This document shows positions 22 to 8,829 of a stretch of 64,000 bases of DNA, piece after piece. Made by a program: the position numbers and the translations under genes. Origin of the DNA: Tissierellales bacterium. GTDB lineage: Bacteria > Bacillota > Clostridia > Tissierellales > Tissierellaceae. The stretch spans positions 124,001 to 188,000 of the forward strand of contig JACIXZ010000002.1 in assembly GCA_014360205.1 (NCBI GenBank), given 5' to 3'. Position 1 is the first letter of the stretch, and each line of letters begins with the position of its first letter. A model generated the notes under the pieces. It made no database searches. It was given only the letters and a program-made list of their open reading frames with translations, and had not been told where the DNA came from.

Positions 22-432
22 ATGGGAAGAAAACAAACACGTGAAGCACTTATGCAAGTCGTTTATCAAATGGATTTAAATAAAAATTTTTCAAAGGAAG
101 AGGTATCTAATTTTTTAAATAACTTTAGCTTAGCTGATTGTGAAGTCGATTACTTAGAAGAATCTGCTTATGGAATCATAGATAATTTAGATACTATTGA
201 CAAATCTATTGAAGAATATACTGAAGGATGGAGTATCGAAAGATTACCAAGAGTTGATTTAGCAATATTAAGAGTTGCTTTTTACGAAATTGTCTATAGA
301 GATGATATTCCTACTGAAGTGGCTATAAATGAGGCTATAGAAATAGCCAAGAAATACAGTGCTCCTGATGCATTTAAATATATTAATGGAGTATTAGGCA
401 GTTTTGTAAGGGCTAATGAGATTTATGAATAA
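22..432 (+). CDS. nusB: Transcription antitermination factor NusB
   Basis: All-helical RNA-binding protein that, with S10 (NusE), binds boxA in rRNA leaders and supports antitermination. The roughly 136-residue length, the basic N-terminus beginning MGRKQTREA, the central segment with RLPRVDLAILR, and the C-terminal AINEAIEIAKKYS followed by FINGVLG-like YINGVLGSF are all typical of the family. The start at 22 is preferred over the ATG at 16 because AGAAGG at 10-15 would leave almost no spacing to the earlier codon. It is the first gene seen of the nusB-xseA-xseB-ispA cluster and its stop overlaps the start of the next gene. The upstream part of the operon lies outside the window. Confidence 0.96.
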   Translation: MGRKQTREALMQVVYQMDLNKNFSKEEVSNFLNNFSLADCEVDYLEESAYGIIDNLDTIDKSIEEYTEGWSIERLPRVDLAILRVAFYEIVYRDDIPTEVAINEAIEIAKKYSAPDAFKYINGVLGSFVRANEIYE

Positions 433-1366
433 ACACTACTTAGGAATAGATACTAGCAATTACACTTCATCTATATCTGTTATAAATGAAAGTGATCAGA
501 TATTATTAGATCAACGAATAATATTAGATGTTCCATTGGGAAAGAGTGGACTTAGACAACAAGAAGCAGTTTTTCAGCACTTGATCAATATTCCTAAACT
601 TATAGAAAGTATAAACATAGATGTAAATTGTTTTGACACTGTATCAGTAAGCTCTAAACCTAGGCAGATAGAAGGCTCTTATATGCCAGTTTTCAAGGTT
701 GGAGTTAGCTTTGCAGAAGTTATATCAAAAATCAACAAAATACCAATAAAATACTTCAGTCACCAAGAAGGTCACATCGCTTCAATAATTTATGAAAATA
801 ATATTTATGAAGATGCTTTTGTTTCATTTCACTTTTCTGGAGGAACAACAGAAATCATTTTAGTAAAAAATTCAGATAATTTATATACTACTTTAATAGG
901 TGGAACCAATGATATTAGTTTCGGCCAGTTAATTGATAGAATAGGTGTTTACACAGGGCTAAAGTTTCCATGTGGCGAAAAAATGGAAAAAATTGCGTGT
1001 TTAGGTAGCTTGTTAAAATTAGACTTACCAAAACCACAAAACACAACATGGATAAATTTATCAGGCTTAGAAAATTTCTACAAGAGATTGATAGATTCAA
1101 AAAAATATAATATTGAAGATATATTTTATACATTATTTATAAATATTTCCTATTTCATTGAAAACATGGTTATCAAAACTATTGAAATTCAAAATACTTC
1201 TACTGTTTTAATTGTAGGCGGTGTAAGCACAAATAATATAATTAGAAATTATTTGTCAAACAACAACTATAGAATAAAAATATACTATTCTAAAACAAAT
1301 CTATCTTCTGACAATGCGGTGGGTGTTGGTTTTTTAGGTAAGTATAAGCGTGGCTGGGAGGATTAA
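425..1366 (+). CDS. TsaD/Kae1-like (peptidase M22 family) paralogue
   Basis: ASKHA-fold protein resembling TsaD, the enzyme that transfers threonylcarbamoyl to tRNA A37. Visible features are the phosphate-1-like N-terminus LGIDTSNYTSS, the metal-binding HQEGH at about residues 113-117, a glycine-rich ATP-binding stretch SGGTTEI, and a C-terminal GGVSTNN with SSDNAVG. At about 313 residues it is slightly shorter than genuine TsaD. A TsaD paralogue between nusB and xseA is common in Clostridia, and its role there is not established; the true tsaD is expected elsewhere. ATG at 425 is chosen over the in-frame ATG at 416 because the purine-rich AAGGG near 408-412 fits it better. It overlaps the end of nusB by 8 nt. 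Confidence 0.75.
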   Translation: MNKHYLGIDTSNYTSSISVINESDQILLDQRIILDVPLGKSGLRQQEAVFQHLINIPKLIESINIDVNCFDTVSVSSKPRQIEGSYMPVFKVGVSFAEVISKINKIPIKYFSHQEGHIASIIYENNIYEDAFVSFHFSGGTTEIILVKNSDNLYTTLIGGTNDISFGQLIDRIGVYTGLKFPCGEKMEKIACLGSLLKLDLPKPQNTTWINLSGLENFYKRLIDSKKYNIEDIFYTLFINISYFIENMVIKTIEIQNTSTVLIVGGVSTNNIIRNYLSNNNYRIKIYYSKTNLSSDNAVGVGFLGKYKRGWED

Positions 1367-3666: not shown

Positions 3667-3695
3667 TTGATAAATTCAATAATTTATGGTATACT
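3667..3695 (+). promoter_or_regulatory. Promoter of the OLE RNA
   Basis: TTGATA at 3667-3672 and TATACT at 3690-3695 are separated by exactly 17 bp, a near-consensus housekeeping sigma promoter. It starts immediately after the ispA stop codon and predicts a transcript start near 3702-3704, the left edge of the GC-richer structured block. This suggests the RNA can be made independently of the xse-ispA operon. Confidence 0.75.
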
Positions 3696-3890
3696 AATTA
3701 TAGTTATAGTGGTACAGTATTCTAGTCAGCACAGCTATTTCTGAAGGCGGGCCTAAAAATCCGTCAAAGAGCATATCGATGAAGTTCTTTATGTTTGGCT
3801 TGCGACGCCCAGTCGTGGGCTTTCATAAGGAGTAAGAAGGATGGGGCGATCTGCAATGGCATGCAGGCGTGGACCCTGCCTTCGTGGAGA

Positions 3891-3922
3891 CATAATATAG
3901 TGAAAAATAGTACTATATTATG
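3891..3922 (+). repeat. AU-rich 11-bp perfect hairpin inside OLE RNA
   Basis: CATAATATAGT at 3891-3901 pairs perfectly with ACTATATTATG at 3912-3922 around a 10-nt A-rich loop. It is AT-only apart from one C-G and one G-C pair, unlike the GC-rich neighbouring helices, so it is probably a variable peripheral arm of the RNA. Confidence 0.6.
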
Positions 3923-4291
3923 ATAAACCTGCAACAAAACATCAAATCAAATTAAATTTGCAGAGTAGCTTGCCTTGAGTGGGTTAGTGCGGATGGTAAG
4001 TTCAGATTTAAAGATTCAGGGCCCGAAACTTTAAATCTCTGTTACCGAAACCTAATCTGCAAAAGAGGATAGGAAATAGTATGGCTGTTGAGGAAAACTC
4101 CTAGACTGTTCACGTTGTTGAGATAACTAGGGGATTACAGTGCGGACTAAGTGGCAATCCAGTCCTGCAATTGGCGACATTGCAGTGATAAGATTAAAGG
4201 GAAACCGCTGCACCGGCGACGGGCAGTTCTTGTCGGGGAAATCCTGCTGGACCTAAAGCCGTAAGATTTACTCTAGTTATTACCACTCGTT

Positions 4292-4320
4292 AAGCTGATA
4301 GCAGTGCTGTCAGCTTTTTT
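4292..4320 (+). terminator. Intrinsic terminator of OLE RNA
   Basis: AAGCTGATAGC (4292-4302) pairs with GCTGTCAGCTT (4306-4316; one G-U pair) around a 3-nt loop, and a run of T follows to 4320. It sits between the RNA and oapA, so oapA mRNA must come from read-through or from a promoter not recognised here. Confidence 0.88.
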
Positions 4321-4343
4321 ACTTATACATATTAGGAGGAAAT

Positions 4344-4958
4344 ATGTCAAAAATTGAGGATGATAGTTTATATAATAAATATAACTTGAAATGGGTAATA
4401 CCTATTACTTTGTGGACATTTATAATATCCATTACATTGTCTGTTTTTTCGGAGAGCCTAGTAAAACGATTCGATTTGTTAGTAGCTTTTATAATTCTAA
4501 TAATTATAATATTTATTGGTATAATATTTGATATAGTAGGAGTGGCTGTTACAAGTGCTAACGAAAAACCTTTTCATGCAATGGCAGCTAATAAGATTCC
4601 TGAGGCGAAAATAGCTATAAAGTTAGTGAGAAATGCTGGTAAGGTAAGTAATTTTTGCAATGATGTAATTGGAGATATAAGTGGAATTTTATCTGGAGCT
4701 ATTTCTGCCAGTATTGTTATAAAATTAGTTGAAACTTTTTCTTTATTAAATATTACAATAATAACAATACTCTTAACTGCATTTACTGCTTCTTTGACTG
4801 TTGGTGGAAAAGGGATTGGCAAAAGTATTGCTATGAACAATGATGAGAAAATAGTTTACATAATGGCAAAATTCTTAAAGCTATTAGAGAAAGTTTTTAA
4901 TATAAAATTTTTTAAAGAAAAGAATACTAAAGAAAAGAATGCTAATGGTAGTAAATGA
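4344..4958 (+). CDS. oapA: OLE-associated membrane protein OapA
   Basis: 204-residue integral membrane protein with four predicted membrane segments at about 17-38, 44-68, 112-132 and 134-153, a polar amphipathic stretch between the second and third, and a lysine-rich C-terminal tail. Size, topology and position directly after the OLE RNA match OapA, which binds OLE RNA and anchors it at the membrane. The stretch with VGVAVTSANEKPF and EAKIAIKLV resembles the first part of DUF21 (CNNM/CorC-type) membrane domains; that resemblance is my inference and would fit the reported magnesium phenotype. AGGAGGA at 4333-4338 places the start at ATG 4344. It is followed 15 nt later by tlyA, so the two may be co-translated from one mRNA. 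Confidence 0.9.
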   Translation: MSKIEDDSLYNKYNLKWVIPITLWTFIISITLSVFSESLVKRFDLLVAFIILIIIIFIGIIFDIVGVAVTSANEKPFHAMAANKIPEAKIAIKLVRNAGKVSNFCNDVIGDISGILSGAISASIVIKLVETFSLLNITIITILLTAFTASLTVGGKGIGKSIAMNNDEKIVYIMAKFLKLLEKVFNIKFFKEKNTKEKNANGSK

Positions 4959-7438: not shown

Positions 7439-7509
7439 AACGACAAACAGCGAGCATATAAGTAGATGATATGATATATAAAATCAATAATTTTTAACGG
7501 AGGTATAAG

Positions 7510-8046: not shown

Positions 8047-8058
8047 AGGAGAAATGGA

Positions 8059-8829
8059 ATGGGATTAAATTATATCGAAAAATTTTTAGAATATCTGAAG
8101 AATGAGAAGAAACTTAGCAATAATACTATGCAGGCATATCTTAGTGATCTCAAGCAATATGAACATTTTTTAAGGAATAATAACATAGAAATTACTAAAG
8201 CAAATAATACCAATGTTTTAATGTATTTATTAAATTTACAGAAATTAGAGAAATCAACAGCAACCATATCTAGACATTTAGCAAGTATAAGATGTTTTTA
8301 CGAATATCTCCAAAGATGCGGTTTGATAAATGAAGATCCAACTTTCAATTTAAAAGTACCTAGAAAAAAGAAAAAACAACCCAAAATTTTAGAAGAGCAT
8401 GAAATTAATGCTTTATTGAGCTTACCTGATATAAAAACAGAAAAAGGCTTAAGGGATAAGATAATATTGCAAGTGGCATATTTCACTGGATTAAGGGTAT
8501 CTGAACTAAGCGAACTATCTATAAAAAATATAAATTTTGCAGACAAAACTATTGTTATAAATAGAAATAATACTTCAGTAAGTTTAGAATTGACAAATGA
8601 AACTATTGATTTAATTAACAACTATTTGAATTTGTTTAGAAAGGATTATGACGAAAATGAGCCATTGTTTATAAATTATTTAGGAGAGAGAATCACAAGA
8701 CAAGGGCTTTGGAAAATCATTAGATCTTACGCTAATGGGATTATTGACAAACCAGTTACACCTCAAGTTATTAGAAATTCTTTCATTGCAAATTTAATGA
8801 AAGATGAAACAAATCTTCAAAGACTTTAA
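8059..8829 (+). pseudogene. Degenerate XerD-like tyrosine recombinase lacking the catalytic C-terminus
   Basis: The N-terminal SAM-like core-binding domain (about 1-95) and the start of the catalytic domain are clear, including FTGLRVSELSEL with Arg146. The beta-hairpin lysine of the GKGNKER element is missing (NRNNTSVSL instead). The HxxR box reads TPQVIRN, so His is replaced by Gln236. The protein ends at residue 256, before the second His/Trp and the tyrosine nucleophile. Full-length XerD has about 290-300 residues. No remnant of the missing part lies in the 30 nt before pdp. The frame and ribosome site (AAAGGAG) are otherwise intact, so it may still be translated, but it should not cut DNA. 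An intact family member lies at 41653-42660. Confidence 0.85.

Follow-up and report, generated by a model that had tools for sequence, protein, structure and literature searches.

A full-length OLE RNA beside oapA in a Tissierellaceae lineage in which core sporulation genes were not found

The window analyzed here (the whole 64-kb stretch of DNA, with Soehngenia of the Tissierellaceae as its most likely host genus) carries a genuine and complete OLE RNA, an ordinary full-length member of an already known RNA family, next to the gene for its membrane partner OapA, in a genome in which three core sporulation proteins were not found over curated cut-offs. OLE persists, apparently strongly constrained, in several lineages without sporulation genes, and this decoupling stands. 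We put at roughly 85% the probability of the explanation as a whole, namely that a stress-response OLE ribonucleoprotein (RNP) is kept under selection without sporulation genes, a vegetative role being the likeliest. Earlier papers already describe the RNA together with its partners, dimer and stress phenotypes (PMC11332333, PMC12265935, PMC9723947, PMC12054373, PMC12286853, PMC10898510), and Fernando and Breaker reported more than three dozen sporulation proteins among those best correlated with OLE in Bacillota, with a further lead from gene neighborhood and modest sporulation defects given as unpublished data (PMC11332333). No paper on OLE in Tissierellaceae or in non-sporulators was found in a search of titles and abstract openings, the scope of which mostly excluded subscription papers. 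What is new here is a counter-example to the OLE-sporulation link, in which the missing genes are physically recorded in the gene string.

A sequence-only reading of this DNA had proposed an OLE RNA beside OapA and had named two computational checks, a search with the Rfam OLE model and a profile comparison of the 204-aa protein with OapA; the outcome favored the proposal on both counts. The covariance search was positive (RF01071, 488.7 bits with a gathering score of 50, E 2.4e-140), the alignment spanning positions 1-616 of the 616 in the model; OLE was the sole Rfam match in the window to reach its gathering score and the single OLE match in the 1.98-Mb genome. The copy belongs to the full-length type and not to variant 1 or variant 2, the whole model being matched and helices 3891-3922, 3929-3963 and 3972-4069 being present. 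The OLE region has a G+C content of 43%, and the OLE strand folds at -188.4 kcal/mol (z -3.2), with none of 20 shuffles as stable. Across the family's 15 OLE sequences, 1975 of 2199 cells are paired at the 155 consensus pairs, taken as those present in the window, compared with 829-1004 when partners were slid by 1-3 columns, and 63 of the 155 pairs show compensatory change compared with 17-29 in the slid controls; since the structure was derived by aligning the window's copy to the Rfam model, the unslid count is favored, that of paired cells most. Within the 3′ domain, compensatory change was counted at 6 pairs of helix 4122-4132/4271-4281, 5 of 4165-4173/4178-4185, 7 of 4186-4193/4228-4235 and 4 of 4207-4215/4220-4227; P12.2/P13, part of the second OLE domain, is the reported binding site of OapB (PMC12265935). 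The predicted kink-turn region bound by OapC falls inside the matched model. In the published cryo-EM dimer, bridge B1 is an A-A helix at L4 and B3 a kissing loop at L9.3 with a GGCC core (PMC12286853). Judged by loop sequences alone, the loop with CUAAAAAUCC is taken as a putative L4 and the GGGCCC loop as a putative L9.3, and both motifs are present in all 15 family OLE sequences.

Table 1. Features of the OLE-oapA locus and of the two downstream junctions, in window coordinates.
Feature	Position	Strand	Basis
OLE promoter, TTGATA-17-TATACT, TG before second hexamer	3667..3695	+	Motif search and family comparison
OLE RNA, full length	3693..4302	+	RF01071 model 1-616, 488.7 bits
A-run within CUAAAAAUCC, loop of helix 3746-3765	3755..3759	+	Taken as L4 (dimer bridge B1 site)
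GGGCCC palindrome in loop	4019..4024	+	Taken as L9.3 (dimer kissing loop B3 site)
OLE 3′ domain, two GGCGAC-loop hairpins	4122..4281	+	Compensatory pairing
OLE terminator, hairpin 4292-4316 and T-run	4292..4320	+	Hairpin search; arms conserved in sequence
oapA, encoding the CNNM-like OLE-associated membrane protein A of 204 aa	4344..4958	+	CNNM match, DxxxD, model
DVIGD codons, DxxxD motif, residues 107-111	4662..4676	+	OapA sequence comparison
recN-nudix junction, 71 nt; spoIVB-spo0A site in sporulating relatives (some with steA and further genes)	7439..7509	+	
nudix-xer junction; spoIIM site in sporulating relatives	8047..8058	+	

The consensus promoter and terminator noticed from the sequence were both upheld by comparison within the family. 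The promoter match is no evidence by itself, since 8 promoter-like sites were found in the region and 7.0 were expected; a site with 10 or 11 of 12 matching positions, a 17-nt spacer and about the same position occurs in 14 of the 15 family genomes with OLE, the fifteenth being cut by a contig end. Two terminator-type sites were found where 0.6 were expected, the other one lying on the minus strand, and a counterpart of the OLE terminator was recognized by eye in all 15. Because promoter and terminator flank OLE, the RNA is expected to be transcribed separately, with a length of about 610-620 nt. A survey of 80 loci found a terminator-like stem upstream of oapA in 58, of which 39, lying between loci L002 and L071, have CTGATAG or CTATCAG arms; across several families it is the sequence of the arms that is conserved and not just their pairing, a few loci having compensated changes. 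Such conservation is unusual for a plain terminator and may reflect a functional 3′ element outside the Rfam model.

The oapA gene starts 41 nt past the end of the OLE model, and the identity of its product follows from the CNNM match, the adjacency to OLE, the DxxxD motif and the fold taken together. The 204-aa protein scores 28.6 bits with CNNM (PF01595), just over the cut-off of 28.4, and 16 of 32 OapA sequences match this family at E up to 0.001. The DxxxD motif, here D107-V-I-G-D111, is invariant in 84 of 84 OapA sequences and is said to set OapA apart from CNNM domains (PMC11332333). A four-helix membrane protein had been anticipated, and the structure model (mean pLDDT 83) does have four long helices of 27-34 residues, as expected for four membrane spans. 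The closest folds are the CNNM proteins MtCorB and CorC, with 7m1t at Z 12.9 over 132 residues and 2.6 Å, a value to be read with the aligner's caution that a Z below about 13 may reflect a common helical-bundle arrangement, and with unrelated rows at 8.2 or lower; the best Foldseek E was 5.4e-3, and comparison with PDB sequences gave no match by either single sequence or profile. The same CNNM comparison has already been published for the OapA of H. halodurans (PMC11332333). Among named relatives, a Tissierellaceae MAG has the OapA closest to this one (87%), followed by Soehngenia longivitae (86%).

Other reported partners of OLE are encoded elsewhere in the genome. OapB is a 97-aa protein whose gene lies directly upstream of infA and whose sole match is the solved OapB 7k9b (E 4e-13); OapC/YbxF is an 82-aa protein encoded between genes read as rpoC and rpsL, with YbxF 4lck as its best match (E 1.1e-13) and a score under the NCBIfam L7Ae-like cut-offs (82.6 vs 113); and a bS21 gene was found. 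Mainly from work on Halalkalibacterium halodurans, we infer how the locus is transcribed as a unit, how its RNA dimerizes and assembles at the membrane, and what it does. It would yield a discrete OLE RNA, some 610-620 nt long and bounded by a promoter and terminator of its own, and the gene that follows would supply OapA; the RNA would dimerize through its 5′ domain, as in the published model, and bind OapC/YbxF, bS21 and OapB, and the resulting RNP would dock on OapA in the membrane and act in the response to stress from excess Mg2+, cold, ethanol or the carbon source. OapB and OapC were both rejected as OLE-specific markers in this family: among its genomes with OLE, OapB is present in 14 of 15 and an L7Ae protein in 11 of 15, and among those without OLE each is present in 12 of 13. 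In four OLE-bearing genomes (G001, G003, G012 and G013, two of them <90% complete) no L7Ae/OapC protein was detected, and in G013 OapB was likewise not detected. Replacement of lost OLE by MpfA was also rejected, there being no clear gain: with E up to 0.001 as the limit, CorC_HlyC domains are present in all 13 family genomes that lack OLE, 3 of the matches there being weak (28-32 bits), and in 11 of the 15 that have it. The window's genome has one separate CorC_HlyC (MpfA-type) protein (G000:C3:28738-28980), despite the reported anticorrelation of OLE and MpfA.

The genes around OLE run nusB-xseA-xseB-ispA-OLE-oapA-tlyA, and the setting described from the sequence, with recN beyond, is confirmed by family models for nusB, xseB, ispA, oapA and tlyA and by eye, from translations, for xseA and recN. 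Between nusB and xseA lies a diverged TsaD-like paralogue of 316 aa (window 416-1366), which scores 129.7 bits, well under the NCBIfam cut-off of 207.8, and which recurs at this site in many named relatives and in 6 of the 27 family genomes that were compared. Another protein, XerD-like and 256 aa long (8059-8829), ends early, covering XerD 1-254 of 290, and has 256 aa in genome G015 too. The Xer family has its catalytic tyrosine near the C-terminus, and this shortened protein may be without it.

At their usual places in this gene string spoIVB-spo0A and spoIIM are missing. The comparison covered 27 of the 28 family genomes, G022 being left out; spoIVB, spo0A and steA at the recN-nudix site were named by models in one sporulator, and spoIIM between the nudix gene and the next was named in four, two over the cut-off and two slightly under. 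All 10 genomes that have OLE without the sporulation markers lack spoIVB and spo0A 3′ of recN, the nudix gene lying within 100 nt of recN in 8 of them and other ORFs coming first in G001 and G013, and no ORF of at least 60 aa occupies the spoIIM site in the 9 genomes without the markers that cover it. In all 12 genomes with the markers and without OLE, it is ole and oapA that are absent, the ispA-tlyA site there measuring at most 78 nt. Genome-wide, Spo0A, SpoIIE and SpoIVA were not found over curated cut-offs in three genomes of the genus (G000, G015 and G016, 99-100% complete), in which receiver domains and one PP2C-type domain match weakly and nothing else does; the three genes taken to mark an endospore former were thus not detected in the window's genome. 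Within the family, all three exceed their cut-offs in an identical 17 of 28 genomes (Spo0A 353-419, SpoIVA 725-786 and SpoIIE 519-613 bits).

Gene content therefore agrees with the suggestion of the sequence-only reading that this genome may not sporulate, but Soehngenia has been described as spore-forming (PMC7763609). That source gives both Soehngenia species as spore-positive and Gudongella oleilytica as spore-negative, describes the endospores of S. longivitae as rare, round and terminal, and credits spores for survival in an enrichment stored 33 years. Soehngenia might accordingly sporulate with genes that the assemblies lack or that have diverged beyond the reach of the models. We consider this unlikely, as the three markers fall under cut-off in three of three genomes that are 99-100% complete while matching strongly in 17 other family genomes, and as spoIVB-spo0A and spoIIM are missing within contiguous sequence at their usual place. 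On a contig of S. longivitae (NZ_SRIB01000009.1, locus L003) recN is followed by the nudix gene with no spo0A, and none of the three markers reaches its cut-off in G015, taken as S. longivitae. The structures observed in Soehngenia are either not classical endospores or the product of an unusual sporulation route.

If sporulation genes have indeed gone from these lineages, OLE could be a decaying relic left behind by their loss. Covariance scores are somewhat lower in the 10 non-sporulators (446-489 bits) than in the 5 sporulators (480-509), the median ratio of OLE to protein distance is 0.44 in non-sporulators (45 pairs) compared with 0.32 in sporulators (10 pairs), although these sets differ in depth, and only 8 of the 13 pairs of helix 3929-3963 form in the window's copy. 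These points may indicate a slight relaxation of constraint, but decay is highly improbable given how much has been retained. Model positions 1-616 are matched in 9 of the 10 non-sporulators, the tenth (17-616) being cut by a contig end; these 10 sequences by themselves have 53 compensatory pairs compared with 11-25 in slid controls; the promoter is kept wherever the contig covers it, and the terminator in all 10. Within the genus OLE diverges by just 4-5% (4.0-4.8%) compared with 15-29% for five neighboring proteins, giving ratios of 0.14-0.27, in line with the 0.16 and 0.22 obtained for two closely related pairs of sporulators. This persistence of intact, little-decayed OLE in non-sporulators argues that OLE is not dependent on sporulation, despite the published phylum-wide correlation.

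Whether OLE and sporulation exclude each other is a separate matter. OLE was found in 15 of the 28 family genomes, 10 without and 5 with the sporulation markers, while 12 have the markers only and one, the 88% complete G022, has neither, an inverse association with Fisher p 0.002 by genome and 0.028 by genus, neither being corrected for kinship. Among 249 genomes of the order, 47 have both OLE and SpoIVA, 24 OLE only, 44 SpoIVA only and 134 neither, a positive association (p 2e-9) in which SpoIVA was the sole marker, some OLE and SpoIVA matches were partial (88 of 91 SpoIVA genomes pass the cut-off) and 6 of the 24 OLE-only genomes were <90% complete. The association with sporulation markers is thus positive over the order and negative in Tissierellaceae. 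A kinship-aware test gave a median p of 0.5, with 3 independent pairs on starred branches, too few for significance. A strict inverse rule was rejected as general because it reverses across the order and because of this kinship-aware result, and with few independent events and a positive association across the order the inverse pattern in Tissierellaceae is only suggestive.

On the five-protein tree, read by eye with OLE as ancestral, four losses of OLE all fall in sporulating lineages and three losses of sporulation all fall in OLE-bearing ones; the eight outgroup loci of this tree were picked for carrying oapA and cannot show OLE absence. Again by eye, two losses explain the 15-genome clade no better than one loss followed by one regain, so that Soehngenia and Gudongella could have reacquired OLE by transfer. 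Such a regain appears rather unlikely, since OLE and oapA lie between ispA and tlyA, as they do in other genera, and since the OapA sequences concerned lie inside the family's own group on the OapA tree, where all 15 fall together with support of 92, a grouping that fits vertical descent and with which a donor inside the family remains compatible. Because the lineages that lost endospores kept the OLE RNP and those that lost OLE kept sporulation, the two might be alternative survival strategies in Tissierellaceae, the RNP aiding a spore-less Soehngenia in long dormancy. We regard this as a rather doubtful extension, to which the incomplete G022, having neither and being unplaced on the tree, is a possible exception.

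A vegetative role is most likely, because OLE-oapA is strongly selected while Spo0A, SpoIIE and SpoIVA were not found and the usual sites of spoIVB and spoIIM are without these genes; the selected role of OLE in this lineage would then be in envelope and ion stress and not in sporulation. Few structured bacterial RNAs that lack a known biochemical function match OLE in size, and the Tissierellaceae offer a natural experiment in which one gene string bears both ole-oapA and sporulation cassettes, each of which can be missing alone. That OLE stays structurally selected where sporulation genes are gone points functional work toward vegetative envelope and ion stress, and the small genomes of cultured Soehngenia (about 2 Mb) would allow OLE to be studied without sporulation.

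Compared with known systems, the window's copy shares with the full-length type of RF01071 all 616 model positions, the ispA-OLE-oapA-tlyA-recN neighborhood, the OapA partner and the dimer-loop sequences. It differs in a host lineage without core sporulation genes, in the weak helix 3929-3963 and in terminator arms that are conserved in sequence. Variant 1 (TANB77) and variant 2 (RF39), reported from reduced genomes (PMC11332333), are likewise OLE RNAs of small-genome lineages, but the copy described here is unshortened, and OapB and OapC, reported as largely missing in the TANB77 and RF39 lineages (PMC11332333), are both encoded in its genome. OapA shares a CNNM-like fold with the CNNM domain of the Mg2+ transporters MpfA, CorB and CorC, whereas the DxxxD motif belongs to OapA; and unlike those transporters it is a protein of 204 aa in which no further Pfam domain was found, without CBS or CorC domains.
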